This document shows, piece after piece, positions 11,940-53,599 of a DNA stretch of 59,059 nt (within the stretch, counting starts at the first letter, position 1; each line of letters opens with the position of its first letter). A model generated the notes under the pieces. That model was given only the letters and a program-made list of their open reading frames with translations. It searched no databases and was not told where the DNA came from. The position numbers were made by a program, and so were the translations under genes. The DNA comes from a virus. Location: positions 1 through 59,059 of IMG/VR virus record IMGVR_UViG_3300036651_001467. One strand, 5' to 3'.

Positions 11940-14900
11940 CTACCAGCCGGTCGTACGCGGCCGCTGCTTGCCGCGATTCAAATACTCGGAGAAACTGCGC
12001 GGCGCGGAACCGTCGCCCAATAGCGCCCGCGTCCGGGCCTGCTGGAGCATGGCGATCGTGGGGTCCGAGCTGCGCTGCGCTTCCGCCAGCAACTGCTCGG
12101 CGCTGCGCTTCGCCGGGCCAACGTGCGACATGACGGTGTAGCGGCAGTTGTGAACCAGAACGCCATTTGCGAAGTATTCCGGCTCGCCTTCAACTTCCAG
12201 GTTGTATACGTCCGCGCGGCCCCCGGCGCGCTTTCCCAGCACACGCACGGGAACAGTTTGTGGAATCGCTGTACCGATTGGAGCCGCGCCGGAAGGTGAT
12301 GCCGTTGAATTGCACGGACTCAGACTCAACCCTTGGTCTCCGCACATTACCTCCATTAGCGGCGCAAAGCCGCGACCCTCCACCCATAGCGGATGCTCTT
12401 CCGTTCCGCGCAGGAGCGCACCGTTTGCGAACGCGACAGTTACGGTGGGCGCATTGACGCGCGTGCGCCACGCACGCAATACGCGGCGCGGCCCTTTGCG
12501 GGTAAGCACCATGTCCCCACGGCAAACCATCTCAATCGGAACGTCCCGTCCGTCGCCCATGCGGATCAACGTGCCAGCGGTCAAACAGGAGTCAATTACG
12601 TCATCTAGAGGGTCGCCCTTGACCTTCAGCACGTCATCGTTTCGGTTCGGGTCGTGAATGCGCGTCTGCAGGGCTTCGGCCAACTGCGGGCACTTGTCCG
12701 ACAGCATCAGTTCGCCGCTGTTCAGCATCGTGTAGATCAGCATGGCCCCGGCCACGCGATCATCGGTCGCGCTCTGGAAGGCTATCCCGGATCCCTGATA
12801 CATCTGATCGGCGAGCGTGTTGCCGTCACCACGATTGCTGAACGAATCCGGCGAGAGATACCACGCCTGAATTCTCTGCGGCTCGGTCATCGTGCCGCGT
12901 TTCACGGCGAAGTTGCGCCACAATGACCGCGCGAAATCGGGCGCTGGCTCGTGCTTCGATGTGTATTCGTCAACCACGTACACCCGCCCGCGCGGGAAGC
13001 CGTCGCACGGCTCGCTGCGGCAGAGCAGGTGTGCGGATGCTTGGCTGATACTGAAACCGTAGTCCGCCCCCGCCCAATGCGGCCACCATGGCTGCACCGG
13101 GATCTCGTTGGCCGGGATCACCATGCGCGACTGGTTCCAGCACTCGAAGTACTGACCCTCGAATGCGCCCCAGCATCCCGCCAGCAACGCTTCGCGGAAC
13201 TTGGCGGAGAGGCCCTCTAGCTGTTTGGCGTACTCCGGCCCCAGTAGGTTGTGGTCAGTCAGGCGACCGGGAATGTAGCACGTCGAGAACCCGATCAGCC
13301 GCCCGTCCGATGGCCACCGTGCATCGTCGTAGATTCTGAATGGCTGCCGCGCCCCGGCCAGCGATTCGCCCTCCTGCTCCAAGCAGTGCAGGCACTTCGG
13401 CCCCTGAAATATCGAGCGGTGAAAGACGTGCCCAACGTTACCGGGGTTCGTCGCCAGCCGGATGCGGAGGAACAGCGACGGGTCGGTGGAGCGCAGCCGA
13501 CTAGTGAGGTAGCGGATTGGTTCCTCGGCGAAATGGGTTGATTCATCGAAACCGATGAATGTGTACTGCGCGCCCTGGTACTTGAAGATGTCTTTGTCGC
13601 GTTCGCAGTAACCGAACTCCACGATGCCACCCGAAGGGAATCGCCATGCGTGCTTCTGGTCGTTGTACTTCGCCCCCATCGCGGCATACAACTCATGGCT
13701 GCGCCGGATCAGGCTCTTGTCCAGCTCGGGGAAGGTTTTGCGAAACAGAATCGCGCGCAGATTGGGGTTGTCGCGCTCGAGGATCGCGTCCACCAGCATT
13801 GTCTCGGAATTGTGGGTGGGGATGAAGGCGCGTCCGGCGAGGTAGAGCCGCGACGGCGATGACACGCTGATGCAGCGCACCTCGCCACCCTCGACCAACT
13901 CGGCCGCGACGATGTACCGGCGCGTTGTAGTTGGGCGTGTCGCCAGCCGCAACCGGGACGCCTTGCGCGGCAGGCGGAAGACCTGCATGGGCGGCGTGAA
14001 ATGCAGCGCGAACGATGCGCCATGGTCCACGCCGTTCAGCACGGCGCGCCCCGTGCTCACCGCTGCCTTGATGCCGAGCGAGCACAGCATCTCCCGCATT
14101 CCCCATGCGAGCTCCGGCGCGCAGGTCGAGAAGTAACAAGCGCCGCTCTTCTGGGCGCATCCGTCGGTGTCCATCAACCCCTGAATCAATGCCAGCCGTT
14201 GCGCGATGCTGGCGCGGAAATAGGGCGCGGGAATCGCCTTCAGGCCCAGCAGGCCGCAGCGCCGCAGCATCGGGAGTAGCCCAAGAATGCCGTGCGACCA
14301 CGCCCCGGCGTGATTCGTGACCGTGAATCCATCCTTGCGGATTTCGTCGAACAGTTCGGCGTCAGGCTTGATGATGGTCGCTTGGCGGGAGTTGCCGTCC
14401 CCAAGCCATGCTCCCAGCGTGTAGGGCGGGATTGGGAGCGCCGCCTCCGGCAACTCGATCGGCTGCGCCATGGCGACGGAGTGATTGTTTGTCGCCCCGG
14501 CCTTGAGTGTTGCCGCTATTTCCGCCGTGGTCCGAACGGTGCCCGTTGGCGGCTGTAGGCATGTGGCGGGTCGCCAGCCTGCGGCCTTGGGGCGCTTGCC
14601 CCGCCCCGGCCGCTTCGCGCGCCGCCGAGCCTTCCATGCCTCATCCCGCCGCAGCGCGACGGTGCGCTCTAGCCGGGTCATCGTTTTCCAGTAATGACCC
14701 GCATCGGCGATGATTTCCTCGCCATCGTCAAATCGCAGACGGTACGCCACCGCCGGTTGGGTTATCGGCCCAACCGCCGTGACGGTGCATTGGTGGCCGC
14801 AATCGTCGAATACGATGTCGCCTACCGCTATATCGCGCATCGGCGTGAATCCACCGGGCGTCGGAATCGGTGTCTCCACGTCCAGTGCTTTGAGCGAACC

Positions 14901-15215
14901 GGCCGCGCCGCCCGCAAGCACAAGCTGCGCTGGACACTTCAGCAGCATTTCCTGCGGCTTTGACCTCGGCTCCCAGTTCGGAATGCCGACGCCCGCCGGT
15001 ATGACCAACGACCCCGGATCGCTGCGCTCGCTCGGCGGAGCCGCAGCATTCACGGCAACCCGTTCGCGCTCCAACTCATCCCGCAACTCTGGATCGCGGG
15101 CGAGGTATTCGGCGGGGCCGGGGAGGCCGGGGGCGAGCGGCTTACTTGCAATACTTTTAAGTTTCGCCAGCTTCTCCGCTGGTGTGTGGCGCCATTTCTC
15201 GCCGAACTTGCTCAT
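11940..15215 (-). CDS. terL: Terminase large subunit with two inteins
   Basis: The frame is 1091 residues; after removal of two inteins (110-469 and 877-1023) the enzyme is 584 residues, a normal size. Terminase cuts phage concatemers and drives DNA into the prohead. Walker A is GGAAGSLK (102-109), continuing with SET after intein 1. Walker B is FIGFDE (553-558). The nuclease domain has GADYG (716-720) and the acidic DPLDDVIDS (868-876), continuing with CRYTVMS after intein 2. The ATG overlaps the stop of the gene before it. Both inteins sit exactly in active-site motifs, so unspliced protein would be inactive. Confidence 0.95.
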   Translation of the reverse strand: MSKFGEKWRHTPAEKLAKLKSIASKPLAPGLPGPAEYLARDPELRDELERERVAVNAAAPPSERSDPGSLVIPAGVGIPNWEPRSKPQEMLLKCPAQLVLAGGAAGSLKALDVETPIPTPGGFTPMRDIAVGDIVFDDCGHQCTVTAVGPITQPAVAYRLRFDDGEEIIADAGHYWKTMTRLERTVALRRDEAWKARRRAKRPGRGKRPKAAGWRPATCLQPPTGTVRTTAEIAATLKAGATNNHSVAMAQPIELPEAALPIPPYTLGAWLGDGNSRQATIIKPDAELFDEIRKDGFTVTNHAGAWSHGILGLLPMLRRCGLLGLKAIPAPYFRASIAQRLALIQGLMDTDGCAQKSGACYFSTCAPELAWGMREMLCSLGIKAAVSTGRAVLNGVDHGASFALHFTPPMQVFRLPRKASRLRLATRPTTTRRYIVAAELVEGGEVRCISVSSPSRLYLAGRAFIPTHNSETMLVDAILERDNPNLRAILFRKTFPELDKSLIRRSHELYAAMGAKYNDQKHAWRFPSGGIVEFGYCERDKDIFKYQGAQYTFIGFDESTHFAEEPIRYLTSRLRSTDPSLFLRIRLATNPGNVGHVFHRSIFQGPKCLHCLEQEGESLAGARQPFRIYDDARWPSDGRLIGFSTCYIPGRLTDHNLLGPEYAKQLEGLSAKFREALLAGCWGAFEGQYFECWNQSRMVIPANEIPVQPWWPHWAGADYGFSISQASAHLLCRSEPCDGFPRGRVYVVDEYTSKHEPAPDFARSLWRNFAVKRGTMTEPQRIQAWYLSPDSFSNRGDGNTLADQMYQGSGIAFQSATDDRVAGAMLIYTMLNSGELMLSDKCPQLAEALQTRIHDPNRNDDVLKVKGDPLDDVIDSCLTAGTLIRMGDGRDVPIEMVCRGDMVLTRKGPRRVLRAWRTRVNAPTVTVAFANGALLRGTEEHPLWVEGRGFAPLMEVMCGDQGLSLSPCNSTASPSGAAPIGTAIPQTVPVRVLGKRAGGRADVYNLEVEGEPEYFANGVLVHNCRYTVMSHVGPAKRSAEQLLAEAQRSSDPTIAMLQQARTRALLGDGSAPRSFSEYLNRGKQRPRTTGW
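12147..12587 (-). other. Intein 2 of TerL: class 1 mini-intein
   Basis: 147 residues, C877 to N1023, with C1024 as the +1 residue. Block A is CLTAGTLIRMGDG, block B has RGTEEHPLWV with the conserved His, and the end is EYFANGVLVHN. The segment between the splicing blocks is too short for a homing nuclease, so this is a mini-intein. It interrupts the terminase nuclease site after DDVIDS. Confidence 0.9.
13809..14888 (-). other. Intein 1 of TerL: probable class 3 intein with LAGLIDADG nuclease
   Basis: 360 residues, A110 to N469, with S470 as the +1 residue. The first residue is Ala, not Cys or Ser. The marks of class 3 inteins are seen instead: Trp in block B (AGHYWKT, W176), Cys in block F (VRCISV, C448) and Thr in block G (IPTHN, T467). 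Two LAGLIDADG-type motifs, LGAWLGDG (267-274) and IQGLMDTDG (344-352), mark a homing nuclease. It splits the Walker A site directly after Lys109. Confidence 0.85.
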
Positions 15216-36816: not shown

Positions 36817-37758
36817 CTAGTTCTTCTGGATGTTGATGAGCACGTTCGCCGTGCCGCTGGCTACGGTCGCAAGTGCGCGGCCAACGCTTTCGCCTGCCAG
36901 TACGGTTGCGCCGCCGTCCGCGCAGTCGCCAGCCGTGGTGGTCGAGATGATGACGTAATCGCCCGCCGTGACGCCGCCCGCGTCGAATATGCAAGAGGCG
37001 ATACCAGATACGGCAATAATCGCGTTCCCACTCTTGCCAGCACCGGAAACCACGATGCCGATTACGCCGGACGTGTCTCCGGTGCCGGTAATGATCGCGG
37101 TAGACGGTGCGCCAGTGAGCTTCGCCAGTGCGCCAACAGTGGTGCCGGTGCCGGTTTCGTTGGCAATTCCGACCGCAAAGTTGCCAGAGCTAAACGTCCC
37201 ACTCGGGCTGGCGATAGTGCCCATCGCCGCGTTACCAGATGCGTTCCATTCAATTACCGGCGTACACGCTGCACCGCCGTTCGTGGCGTACCCGACAGAA
37301 AACAAATTACTCCCCTGCGGAGTATAACAGCCAGCGTCAGTAGCGGAGTTTATATATACGCCGAAAGTGTTCGTTGTACCAAGCGTGATGGAATAGCTTG
37401 CGATATTTGCCTGTGCGAAGTTAAGCGTTCCACTTTTATTGCCCGCCGTCCCATTCCCAACATCCACAACGCCAGCGGAGTCGCGCAATAGGCCGGTGTC
37501 GCCATTCCACGACAACACCTTCCCGGTCGCCAGCGCAAGATTCTCCGTCGTGCTCACCGTCGTTCCGTTGTCGGTGACGGAACTGTCGCCGATTGTTCCC
37601 GCCCCGGTTGCCTTGGGGATGACACCGGTGGTCAACGTGCTGGACGTGGTGACCGTTTTCGGCGAAGGCGGCATGGGGCCGACGGTCTGGCCCCACGCGA
37701 TCAAGACGACGATGCAAGCAAGGATCGGAACGGCGGCAAGCCGCATTCTCATCGTCAT
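36817..37758 (-). CDS. Secreted fibre-like protein with N-terminal hydrophobic signal
   Basis: 313 residues. A hydrophobic segment (about 6-22) ending in WGQ looks like a Sec signal or an anchor. The rest is Gly/Thr-rich with beta repeats (GDTSGVIGIVVSGAGKSGNA). No catalytic motif. The start may be any of three close ATG codons (37758, 37752, 37746). See 25143, 37762 and 39352 for related genes. Confidence 0.6.
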   Translation of the reverse strand: MTMRMRLAAVPILACIVVLIAWGQTVGPMPPSPKTVTTSSTLTTGVIPKATGAGTIGDSSVTDNGTTVSTTENLALATGKVLSWNGDTGLLRDSAGVVDVGNGTAGNKSGTLNFAQANIASYSITLGTTNTFGVYINSATDAGCYTPQGSNLFSVGYATNGGAACTPVIEWNASGNAAMGTIASPSGTFSSGNFAVGIANETGTGTTVGALAKLTGAPSTAIITGTGDTSGVIGIVVSGAGKSGNAIIAVSGIASCIFDAGGVTAGDYVIISTTTAGDCADGGATVLAGESVGRALATVASGTANVLINIQKN

Positions 37759-39351: not shown

Positions 39352-40536
39352 CTAGCGGCCAGTAGTCTCGACCGTGAACTGGATGTTGCCGGGTCTGGAT
39401 GATGCGTGCGTATCCGCCGTGACTTGAAGGCTCAACTGCGTGCCGGCGTTGAAATTGCATGTGCCGGTCGGCGCGTTCGATGATCCGTAGATCGCCGTTC
39501 CGCTCAACATCGCGGGGAATGTGCAAACGCTTGTGCCGTCGGTCACCGCGAAGGTCGAAGCTCCCGCGCCCACGCCCGCCGATTGAACAAAGGCACTCAG
39601 CGCCCGCACCGTGATCGGGACATTCGGCGTCCACGCATACAGCGTGGCTGTCGGCGCAGTAATGGTGCCGGCGAAGAACCCGGAGGCATACCCCGGCCCC
39701 AGGTTCGACGTATTCGATACTGCGTACCCGTTCAGGTTGAGCGGGCTGGCGATGCTCTGCGGATAGGGCTGCGCGGGATTCGTGAGAACCGGGGCAGGGA
39801 AGCTCACGCTCGGCGGATAGCCCAACGGCAGAAGCGTAGAAACGTCGAGGGTCGCGCTGGTCAGATACCAGTTCTTCGGGAAGCCGGTGACAACATTCTG
39901 GTTTACATCGGTCAGCGTGGCCGAGTAGTAGGTGGCCGACGGGATCCCGGCGTCGTTTCCGAAGTAGACACAGGCGGTGTTATTGCTCGCAGGCAGCGCC
40001 GCGCCCGATGTCAGCGCCACTGACTGCGTGAAATTCACGTTGTTCAGCGCCGAGCCTTGCAGCGTCTCGGTGCCGGAGCTGGTCCCGATGTACACCCGGT
40101 AGCCGGTGACGCCGCTCGGAATCACGGTGGGCGCATTGATGACGATCTGGCCAGTGCTGTTCAGCGTGAACTGCGCTTCCGGGCCGGCCAGAGTTTCAGT
40201 GCTCGCTGTCGAATTGTAGTTCGTCAGTTTGACGAAATACACGCCGGCGGCGAGCGATCCGGTTCCCGTCTGCGCGGTGCCCGTGGGCGTCGTCAGCGGG
40301 TTAGCCGAGCCCACGACTGACCCATCGGTCGAGGTATAGCAGGTGACAAGCTGCGGGATGACTGCATAGTTTCCCGGCGACACCACCAACTGACTGAGCT
40401 GCAATTGCAGCGTGCCGTTGACCACCGGGCCGATCAGCGGCGTGACAAACTTGCCGGTCAGCGTTCCGGTGGTCGCGCCGAACATCGGCAGCGCCATGGC
40501 CAGCAACGCAGCGGCGAGAACGATGTGGCGTCTCAT
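39352..40536 (-). CDS. Secreted beta-rich protein with Sec signal and Ig-like module
   Basis: 394 residues from ATG 40536, which overlaps the GroES stop (ATGA). Signal peptide MRRHIVLAAALLAMALPMFG, cut near FGA. The module LAAGVYFVKLTNYNSTASTE...GPEAQ...PSGVTGYRVYIGTSSGTETL has a close counterpart in the tail hub at 20816-23176, so it is phage-related and not host cargo. Confidence 0.65.
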   Translation of the reverse strand: MRRHIVLAAALLAMALPMFGATTGTLTGKFVTPLIGPVVNGTLQLQLSQLVVSPGNYAVIPQLVTCYTSTDGSVVGSANPLTTPTGTAQTGTGSLAAGVYFVKLTNYNSTASTETLAGPEAQFTLNSTGQIVINAPTVIPSGVTGYRVYIGTSSGTETLQGSALNNVNFTQSVALTSGAALPASNNTACVYFGNDAGIPSATYYSATLTDVNQNVVTGFPKNWYLTSATLDVSTLLPLGYPPSVSFPAPVLTNPAQPYPQSIASPLNLNGYAVSNTSNLGPGYASGFFAGTITAPTATLYAWTPNVPITVRALSAFVQSAGVGAGASTFAVTDGTSVCTFPAMLSGTAIYGSSNAPTGTCNFNAGTQLSLQVTADTHASSRPGNIQFTVETTGR

Positions 40537-40826
40537 TGGGCTGGTTCCACCAACGTGCATTCGCACTCCCTGAGAATCACCACATCCTCGCCGTCCTGTG
40601 TAATGTCAATCCCCGCGTACTCGCCGAAATGCACGGTGTCGCCGGGCTTCACATCCAGCGGGACCAGCGCGCCGCTTGGCAGTCTGCGGCCCGCACCAAC
40701 CGCCAGCACCACGCCCGACGCCTTCTTCTTCTCGGCCAGGACGGGCGCAATCAGCCCGGCGGGCATTGGAGCGACGGAAGAGTCGCGGCGCACAACCAGC
40801 CTGTCGTGAACGGGGCGGATGCTCAT
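40533..40826 (-). CDS. groES: GroES-like co-chaperonin
   Basis: 97 residues, the same length as bacterial GroES. Full-length pattern: IRPVHDRLVVRRD, GLIAPVLAEKKKASGVVLAVGAG, LDVKPGDTVHFGEYAG and the last ILRECECTLVE. The mobile loop (about 17-34) is altered. It caps GroEL during folding; phage versions help fold large coat proteins. ATGA overlap with the RRM gene upstream. Confidence 0.92.
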   Translation of the reverse strand: MSIRPVHDRLVVRRDSSVAPMPAGLIAPVLAEKKKASGVVLAVGAGRRLPSGALVPLDVKPGDTVHFGEYAGIDITQDGEDVVILRECECTLVEPAQ

Positions 40827-41086
40827 GCCCGCTCCGCGCGCGACTTTCGCGGTCGCGCCTCATTCACGTTCAGCGCCCGGCCGCCCATGCGCTCCCCTTG
40901 GAGTCCGGCAATGGCCTCGTCGGCTTCGATATCAACGGGCATGTCCACGAAGCCGTAGCCACGCGAGCGCCCGCTCTCGTCCTTGATGACCGTGACGCGC
41001 TGGACTTCGCCGAACGCATCGAACAGGCCGCGAACTTCATCATCGGTCGCCGCGAACGGCAGGTTGCCCACAAATATGCTTTTCAC
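40823..41086 (-). CDS. RRM RNA-binding protein
   Basis: 87 residues from a GTG at 41086 preceded by GGAGGGTGG. RNP2 is IFVGNL (4-9) and RNP1 is RGYGFVDM (42-49 region), so this is a single, complete RRM like cyanobacterial and other bacterial Rbp proteins. Binds single-stranded RNA. It sits between GroES and small genes, about 700 bases from the tmRNA. Confidence 0.9.
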   Translation of the reverse strand: MKSIFVGNLPFAATDDEVRGLFDAFGEVQRVTVIKDESGRSRGYGFVDMPVDIEADEAIAGLQGERMGGRALNVNEARPRKSRAERA

Positions 41087-41253
41087 GCTTCCACCCTCCT
41101 GAACAAAGACTTCCACCGCTCCCGCGCCCGGTCGGCTTCGGTCGGCGGTCGCAAACCCAACTGCTCGGCGCAAAACGATGGCGTCCACAAGCGCGCCATC
41201 TGAAGGATCGCCCGCTGCTCGATGAACTTGAATTGGCGCGTGGGTCGCTTCAC
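41083..41253 (-). CDS. Small basic protein, unknown
   Basis: 56 residues starting MKRPTRQFKFIEQRAILQMA from a GTG at 41253. Both ends overlap the neighbours by 4 bases (GTGA), so it occupies a coupled position between two genes. Arg-rich helical; may bind nucleic acid. No family recognised. Confidence 0.55.
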   Translation of the reverse strand: MKRPTRQFKFIEQRAILQMARLWTPSFCAEQLGLRPPTEADRARERWKSLFRRVEA

Positions 41254-41519
41254 TGTTTCGGCATCCCCTCAATCACCTTCACCATGTCGCGTCGAATGTC
41301 GAGGCAGGGCAGCTTGCCGCATACTCCAGCCGGAGCAACATGCCCGACGCCCGCGTGAACCGTCTCAAGGTCGCGCTTGAGCGAGTGCAGCGCCGCCTCA
41401 TGACTGTCGAAATCTTCAAGCTCTGAAACCAGCGTGCCCCCAGGCACGGTGCGCACTCCGTCGCCAGAGATGACCTGCTGTTCGGCCAACGTAAAGCGGT
41501 AATGCCGCGCCTGGATCAT
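41250..41519 (-). CDS. Small protein with Cys pair, unknown
   Basis: 89 residues from ATG 41519 (ATGA overlap). Helical middle EAALHSLKRDLETVHAG, late GVCGKLPCLDIRR. No family recognised; forms part of the coupled series before the RRM gene. Confidence 0.5.
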   Translation of the reverse strand: MIQARHYRFTLAEQQVISGDGVRTVPGGTLVSELEDFDSHEAALHSLKRDLETVHAGVGHVAPAGVCGKLPCLDIRRDMVKVIEGMPKQ

Positions 41520-41814: not shown

Positions 41815-41988
41815 CGGGGGCCAGGACGCGATGCCTAGCCCCAAGCCGTTAGGCTGCCAGCGCCAGAGGCGCCGGAGCCGCAAACGCAATCACGTTGGAT
41901 TTGGCGTTTATGGTTTTGAACTGTTGCGGCCATGTCTCGCCGGCCTGCCGCGTCCTCTTTGGTGCCCCGTCGAAACCATTGCACGCCC
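41815..41988 (-). ncRNA. ssrA: Two-piece tmRNA: coding piece (permuted ssrA)
   Basis: Starts with GGGCGTG (41988-41982), which pairs fully with CACGTCC (42005-41999) of the acceptor piece, including the G3-U70 pair needed for alanine charging. The universal TGGTTTCGACGGGG follows (41978-41965). A tag frame from about 41905 reads AKSNVIAFAAPAPLALAA and stops with TAA at 41851-41849. The 3' end (CATCG, CTGGCC; 41833-41819) pairs with GGCCAGCGATG at the start of the acceptor piece. tmRNA frees stalled ribosomes and tags the protein for breakdown. Confidence 0.88.
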
Positions 41989-41994
41989 TCAAGT

Positions 41995-42080
41995 TGGTGG
42001 ACGTGGCCGGGATCGAACCGGCGTCCGAAGTACCGCCAAGCAACGCATCTACAGGCTTATTCGGCCATCGCTGGCCAAAC
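41995..42080 (-). ncRNA. ssrA: Two-piece tmRNA: acceptor piece (permuted ssrA)
   Basis: Lies upstream of the coding piece, so gene order is permuted. It contains GGTACTTC (42034-42027) that can pair with GGGGCACC of the coding piece (helix P2), the T arm GCCGG-TTCGATC-CCGGC (42022-42006), the 3' acceptor strand CACGTCC, discriminator A and encoded CCA (41997-41995). Only six bases (ACTTGA) part it from the coding piece. Permuted ssrA is known in alphaproteobacteria, cyanobacteria and some betaproteobacteria. The ends given are inferred from pairing. Confidence 0.88.
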
Positions 42081-42092
42081 TGTGAAAACGCA

Positions 42093-52187: not shown

Positions 52188-53327
52188 TTAGGCTTTCCTC
52201 CCCTTTGCGGTTTTGGCTGACTGTGCCGTCTTTTGTGCCGACTCCGTTCCTCCAGTCGGCTTGCGCCGCTCGACGGCCGCGATCGCATCGCGCTTGGCCT
52301 CGCTCCGAATGTGGCCGTAACGTTCAAGCATCCGCTGCGAGACGTGGCCGGCCAGTGCTTTTACCGTCGCCTCGCTCACCTCGGCGTTTTCGAGCAGCCG
52401 CGACACGAACGTATGGCGCAGGTCGTGCCATCGGCAGTTCACCTTCGCCTTGCGGCGCGCCGCTCCCCAGGCCTTCGCAAACGACCCCATGGGCCGGCTC
52501 AGGTCGAGATCCCATAGCCGCGTGACCTCGTCGCCGGCCCCGAGCCGGTAGGCTGGAAAAACGAAACTCTCCGGCTTGCGACCAGGGAAGTACGGCAGCC
52601 AAGCGGTAAGCGCCACACACGCTGCCTGCGATAGCGGAACAGTGCGACCCTCGCCGGCCTCGGTCTTGGCTTGCGCTACGGTCAGTTCGCCGCTGACGAT
52701 GGCGCCCGCGCACCACTCCAGCCGCAGATCGCGCCCGCGTAATCGCCGCAGCTCACCGCGCCGCAAGCCGGAATGGAGAGAGAGCACGAAAGCCGGATAG
52801 AGCGACGGGGATTTGGACGCACGGCAAGCCGCAAGTAGCGCCTCCTCCTCCGCGTCGGAGATGGCCCGTCCCACGTCCGCGCGCTCCCGGAGCTGGCTAA
52901 CGTGATCGGCTAGTTGCGCCCAGATTCCCAGCGGCTTCAATGCCCCGCGCAGAACGCCAATCTCCATGTTGACCGTGCGCGCGGCAAGTCCGCTGGCGGC
53001 GCGCCGGCGCTGGTATACCGCAATGTCGGCGGCGGATACGTCAACAACCAGGCGCGCGCCGAACGCGGCCAGCAGGGGCTTCGACCGCCCAGCCTGCTCC
53101 GTGCCCCATCGCCCACCTTGCCCCGCCAGGTAGTTTTCTACCGCCTGCCGCACCAGCATCGGTTTTGCGGCGGCGCGGATGCCGTTGACGCCGCGCTCGA
53201 GCTGGGCGCGCAGTTCGCGCTCCGCAGCTTCCGCGATCTTACGGTTTGAAGTCCGCGCGGATTTGCGAATTTCCGAGCCGCAGAATTGAAATCGAATCCA
53301 CCAGATTTTTCCACGCGGATACACCAT
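52188..53327 (-). CDS. int: Tyrosine integrase
   Basis: 379 residues from ATG 53327, overlapping the excisionase stop (TGATG). Arm-binding N-terminus MVYPRGKIWWIRFQF, core domain, and the catalytic set R189 (SGLRRGEL), K221, H301/R304 (HDLRH), H328 (GHVS) and Y337 (ERYGH). Recombines attP (52124-52172) with the host tRNA-Gly gene. A longer frame upstream overlaps the excisionase gene. Confidence 0.93.
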   Translation of the reverse strand: MVYPRGKIWWIRFQFCGSEIRKSARTSNRKIAEAAERELRAQLERGVNGIRAAAKPMLVRQAVENYLAGQGGRWGTEQAGRSKPLLAAFGARLVVDVSAADIAVYQRRRAASGLAARTVNMEIGVLRGALKPLGIWAQLADHVSQLRERADVGRAISDAEEEALLAACRASKSPSLYPAFVLSLHSGLRRGELRRLRGRDLRLEWCAGAIVSGELTVAQAKTEAGEGRTVPLSQAACVALTAWLPYFPGRKPESFVFPAYRLGAGDEVTRLWDLDLSRPMGSFAKAWGAARRKAKVNCRWHDLRHTFVSRLLENAEVSEATVKALAGHVSQRMLERYGHIRSEAKRDAIAAVERRKPTGGTESAQKTAQSAKTAKGRKA

Positions 53328-53599
53328 CACGCCCTCCTTGCCGGCAGCGCCGGTATTTTCGTTTCGTCCTTCAATCGCTGGATCTCCGATCGCGGCACCA
53401 GTATCTTGCCGAAAGGCTTCGACACCTCCAGCCTTCGGCGGTTGATCTGCTCGCGCATGGTCGCCACGCTGCAACGCATTTCGGCGGCGGCCTCCTTGAT
53501 GGTTAGGCTCTCGCCCGGTTCGCCCAACGGCTTGGCATCGCCAGGCTGGCGGCGGTGAACACGCTTCGGCATTTTAAGCACTCGTTCGTCGGTTGTCAT
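53327..53599 (-). CDS. Excisionase-like winged HTH protein
   Basis: 90 residues from ATG 53599. ESLTIKEAAAEMRCSVATMRE then INRRRLEVSKPFGKILVPRSEI is a MerR/Xis-type winged helix, with a basic N-terminus. Coupled directly to the integrase, as excisionases and integration directors often are. It could also act as a regulator of int. Confidence 0.8.
   Translation of the reverse strand: MTTDERVLKMPKRVHRRQPGDAKPLGEPGESLTIKEAAAEMRCSVATMREQINRRRLEVSKPFGKILVPRSEIQRLKDETKIPALPARRA

Follow-up and report, generated by a model that had tools for sequence, protein, structure and literature searches.

tmRNA is charged with alanine by virtue of its G3-U70 pair, is delivered by SmpB, and adds a tag whose C-terminal LAA is recognized by ClpXP. 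In the established model of permuted tmRNA, tRNA enzymes process the RNA into two pieces that are paired with each other (PMC11915505). Two-piece tmRNAs have been published in phages, for example in the OM43 phage Melnitz, and account for 53 of the 133 unique tmRNA structures of phages; 50 of these 53 come from marine or aquatic phages (PMC9004378). The tmRNA database of 2025 lists 79 bacteriophage sequences (PMC11915505). As at the locus described here, the tmRNA of Melnitz and its relatives is permuted and carried by a phage; that of Melnitz is related to alphaproteobacterial genes and was reported with a glutamine riboswitch (PMC9004378). The permuted tmRNA of betaproteobacteria (Rfam family RF01850) shares with our locus the order of its parts, the T arm, the GGTTTCGAC motif and the resume region.

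Gene structure and pairing between the two pieces

The window, i.e. the whole stretch of DNA analysed, comes from IMG/VR and is a phage contig 59,059 bases long, with genes for a terminase, a structural protein, exonuclease VIII, a helicase and an integrase. Direct reading and model scans located a complete circularly permuted tmRNA gene within 42087-41758 on the minus strand. The original prediction of a phage-encoded, permuted two-piece tmRNA, which had proposed an Infernal search with the Rfam tmRNA models as a check, was well supported by this search (cmscan) and by gene calling. The model tmRNA_permuted (RF04321) matched over its full length (1-213) at 42056-41849 with 114.7 bits for a cut-off of 47 (E 1.1e-21), and beta_tmRNA (RF01850) matched at 42100-41863 with 84.7 bits, marginally above its cut-off of 84 (E 4.5e-24). 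All other Rfam families stayed below their gathering scores in the window. Independently, ARAGORN called a permuted tmRNA (tmRNA*) with the tag AKSNVIAFAAPAPLALAA. In agreement with membership of RF04321, the acceptor end is encoded 5' of the tag part, the 7-bp acceptor stem contains G3-U70, and an open tag frame with a stop codon follows the resume region. The T arm, acceptor strand, CCA, spacer, GGGCGTG, GGTTTCGAC signature and tag frame that had been read from the sequence at the outset were all present, and the coordinates given at the outset were correct. The features are as follows.

41995-42087, minus strand: acceptor (tRNA-like 3') piece (ARAGORN, cmscan with RF04321 and RF01850), with an uncertain 5' end (42087 for ARAGORN, 42056 for the start of the tmRNA_permuted model)
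42063-42076, minus strand: hairpin GGCC-AGCGAT-GGCC in the 5' part of the acceptor piece (sequence, cofold)
42027-42034, minus strand: GGTACTTC, partner of 41968-41961 (sequence, model alignment)
42006-42022, minus strand: T stem-loop GCCGG-TTCGATC-CCGGC (sequence, model alignment)
41995-42005, minus strand: acceptor 3' strand CACGTCC (42005-41999), discriminator A and encoded CCA ending at 41995 (sequence, covariation over 19 distinct phage stems)
41989-41994, minus strand: 6-nt spacer ACTTGA, presumably lost on maturation (sequence)
41815-41988, minus strand: coding (mRNA-like) piece, its 3' end probably lying past the terminal hairpin (ARAGORN, cmscan)
41982-41988, minus strand: acceptor 5' strand GGGCGTG, forming the G3-U70 wobble with CACGTCC (sequence)
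41969-41977, minus strand: conserved GGTTTCGAC motif (sequence, cmscan)
41961-41968, minus strand: GGGGCACC, forming the junction helix between the pieces with GGTACTTC (sequence, model alignment)
41849-41905, minus strand: tag frame AKSNVIAFAAPAPLALAA with stop codon TAA (ARAGORN coding part 183-239; first eight codons common to the IMG/VR contig L069)
41817-41842, minus strand: hairpin GGGGCTAGG-CATCGCGT-CCTGGCCCC close to the 3' terminus of the coding piece (sequence, cofold)

All seven acceptor pairs are formed between CACGTCC and GGGCGTG, the third being G-U. Two further pairings between the pieces had been proposed. The junction pairing of 42034-42027 with 41968-41961 was confirmed, including its single mismatch. 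The distal pairing of GGCCAGCGATG with CATCG...CTGGCC is doubtful, since each of its strands also folds into one of the local hairpins listed above, which compete with it and were preferred in the cofold predictions; at most, the loops GCGAT and ATCGC could pair. The joint folding energy of the two pieces was lower than that of all 200 composition shuffles, the interaction energy by itself being only modestly below background (cofold). Based on the full-length model match, the ARAGORN call and the seven acceptor pairs including the wobble, the two-piece tmRNA gene is intact and probably working (probability of about 0.8).

Relatives in bacteria and phages

Within the tmRNA clan, the best match of the window was the beta model, rather than the alpha (RF01849) or cyano (RF01851) models. 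The sequence AAAACCATAAACGCCAA ahead of the resume codon also matches the beta consensus (cmscan). The tag is AKSNVIAFAAPAPLALAA and not one of the RF01850 host type, such as ANDERFALAA. The latter tag is found in the sole beta-type host gene compared, which carries CCACCC in contrast to the encoded CCACCA of the window. The alpha-type host genes examined have the T region GCGGTACC and mostly GATCGAC, whereas the window has TTCGATC and TTTCGAC. We infer from these sequence comparisons, made on a short RNA, that the window RNA derives from a beta-type gene. No host locus was matched by the regular expression for the acceptor stem, the alpha-type genes examined differing in the T region as described. 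Two scans of genome contigs with the acceptor pattern returned nothing, the second of which says little because its pattern was over-strict (AA fixed before TGGTTTCGAC).

Scanning IMG/VR for the permuted arrangement returned 87 stretches, mostly called as permuted tmRNA by ARAGORN, and two further pattern scans returned at least 120 and 23 stretches resembling permuted tmRNA (about 230 matching stretches for the scans together). These numbers and the published phage examples (PMC9004378) contradict the initial view that a permuted tmRNA is unusual in a phage. The phage two-piece tmRNA is a known, widespread kind, to which the window adds one member; a GC-rich, integrase-bearing phage thereby joins a group of carriers reported to be mostly marine or aquatic. 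The seven acceptor pairs were all present in 77 of 83 phage loci sharing one common pattern. Among 19 distinct phage stems, position 3 was G-U in every case and pairs 4-6 covaried; the pattern itself demanded at least five pairs, and the weight of this evidence therefore lies in the variation among standard pairs. The contig L069 shows conservation of the AAAACCATAAACGCCAA region and the first tag codons, which are identical at 41 of 47 positions.

Permuted tmRNAs scoring above the RF04321 cut-off, and lacking annotation in the corresponding records, were detected in the phages XacN1, Axy11, Tunturi_5 and Sf-FS3. The acceptor stem of XacN1, CACGTCC/GGGCGTG, is identical to that of the window. 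The spacers of XacN1 and Axy11 exceed 100 nt, as opposed to 6 nt in the window. The tags differ from AKSNVIAFAAPAPLALAA, being ANANTFDYALAA in XacN1 and, as read by eye, ANDDYIRVAA in Axy11, AKNSPVVRGTAKVLSFARKFVPAVSSTRAFAMAA in Tunturi_5 and ANNIVAFSRTRELATA in Sf-FS3. For the Synechococcus cyanophage Sf-FS3, NIVAF in the tag resembles NVIAF of the window, whereas its best model was cyano_tmRNA (RF01851, 143 bits) and that of the window was beta_tmRNA. In the Xanthomonas phage XacN1, the gene was found twice, at 37231-37530 and 356026-356325 of AP018399.1 (2943-3363 in our locus L089); the record has no tmRNA feature around the first copy, and a GOLLD RNA is located nearby (L089 4312-4725). 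The genes of two cultured phages, Tunturi_5 (L106 2400-2696, minus strand) and the Achromobacter phage Axy11 (L107 1629-1918, plus strand), have no tmRNA annotated at their place, and ARAGORN called none in L097 and L098, the loci covering these two genes.

The tag peptide

The tag of the window, whose atypical character had not been part of the original description, is devoid of the host-like AND start, which was present in 31 of the 32 unique tags of the sampled Pseudomonadota permuted tmRNAs. AND or DND opened 23 of the 48 unique tags of a first phage set. The motif [VIL][VIL][ASTP]F, defined after inspection of the tags of this first set, occurred in 10 of the 48, including that of the window (0.38 expected by residue shuffling), and in none of the 32 unique host tags from the sampled proteobacteria. 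It was absent from the 69 further unique tags of a second phage set, whose contigs are mainly AT-rich; the motif claim is thus limited to GC-rich phages, within which this second set provides no test. The Tunturi_5 tag, from a phage with Tunturiibacter psychrotolerans X4BP1 as its recorded host, is among the ten carriers. A pattern search found the first eight tag residues of the window in one other IMG/VR contig, L069. The substitutions do not firmly establish a coding constraint on the phage tags, since one pair displayed four synonymous and one non-synonymous change (p 0.012, uncorrected) and the other pairs were not significant.

The tag of the window is possibly a new variant, as one of a set of tags of GC-rich phages; searches of the open-licence literature yielded no publication dealing with classes of tags in the permuted tmRNAs of phages. 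The AND start overlaps the SspB-binding part of the E. coli tag, and its loss suggests altered adaptor use. A more far-reaching and rather unlikely proposal is that GC-rich phages have remade the tag, replacing the AND start by longer tags with V/I/L-V/I/L-x-F and often an MAA end, so that rescued proteins would escape adaptor control by the host or meet another fate than host-tagged proteins. If functional, such atypical tags would mean that phages alter the handling of rescued proteins by host quality control.

Genomic setting, alternative explanations and proposed mode of action

The gene, on the minus strand, occupies an intergenic gap among phage genes; a SprT-like gene lies upstream of it, and genes for an RRM-domain protein and a Cpn10/GroES protein lie downstream. 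From the gene order, a location in the late operon, as originally assigned, is plausible. No promoter-like site was found near the gene. The protein with the RNA recognition motif (PF00076, E 1.2e-18) is encoded directly downstream, at 40823-41272 (minus strand). The 97-residue Cpn10/GroES-like protein (PF00166, E 2.3e-18), encoded at 40533-40826 (minus strand), has relatives of less than 60% identity in 28 records of the phage collection.

Since ssrA frequently serves as a site of integration and prophages can carry fragments of it (PMC9004378), the gene might be a passenger or else a decaying copy of host ssrA, acquired by transduction or imprecise excision and no longer useful to the phage. 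The window has a lower bit score than most of the permuted genes sampled from proteobacteria, which is consistent with this explanation. We nevertheless consider it unlikely because the functional elements are all intact, with CCA encoded and the stop codon in place, and because the tag does not resemble the host ANDN or ANDERFALAA types and has its first eight residues in common with another viral contig. The integrase gene (52188-53474) is also about 10 kb away, making a remnant of an attachment site improbable. The tRNA-like-only RNA of mycobacteriophage DS6A has been proposed to act as an inhibitor or decoy (PMC4131195; PMC11915505), and an RNA titrating host SmpB or competing with host tmRNA would fit with the failure to detect SmpB in the contig of the window or in 10 other phage records. 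Such a role is very unlikely here because the window gene, unlike that of DS6A, retains a full tag frame, a beta-like resume region and a stop codon. Chance resemblance, or two unrelated RNAs that happen to be neighbours, is refuted by E values of 1e-21 to 1e-24 across both pieces together with the tmRNA* call; nothing was found in its favour, and its probability is negligible.

An intact two-piece tmRNA, if expressed by the phage, would operate as follows. The 3' half would be read first in the transcript, and host tRNA enzymes would excise the 6-nt spacer, RNase P acting at 41988 and 3' processing at 41995. This would yield separate acceptor and coding RNAs that stay joined through the seven base pairs of the acceptor stem and through the junction helix. 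The G3-U70 pair would be recognized by the alanyl-tRNA synthetase of the host, which would charge the acceptor RNA with alanine. As SmpB was not detected in the contig, host SmpB would be needed to deliver the tmRNA to ribosomes that have stalled on broken mRNAs, presumably during infection. Nascent chains would gain AKSNVIAFAAPAPLALAA, the final LAA of which should still act as a ClpXP-type degron.

The phage lineage is apparently an orphan. The head-protein-like, 547-residue and 404-residue proteins had no relatives in viral contigs or in the phage collection, and a 779-residue protein had two weak matches in 299 Pseudomonadota genomes. No match was obtained between positions 36000-59059 and plasmids, or between the window proteins and the first tmRNA-bearing viral loci. 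Weak matches of an 80-residue downstream protein to L043 and L058 were not trusted, the latter being out of frame inside a larger open reading frame. The terminase has distant relatives only. Its large subunit (1091 residues, 11940-15215, minus strand) apparently contains two inteins, the first (residues about 112-470) being of the LAGLIDADG type with tblastn matches in exonuclease, helicase and terminase genes of phages, and the second (residues about 877-1023) displaying weak matches to Hint/intein splicing domains.
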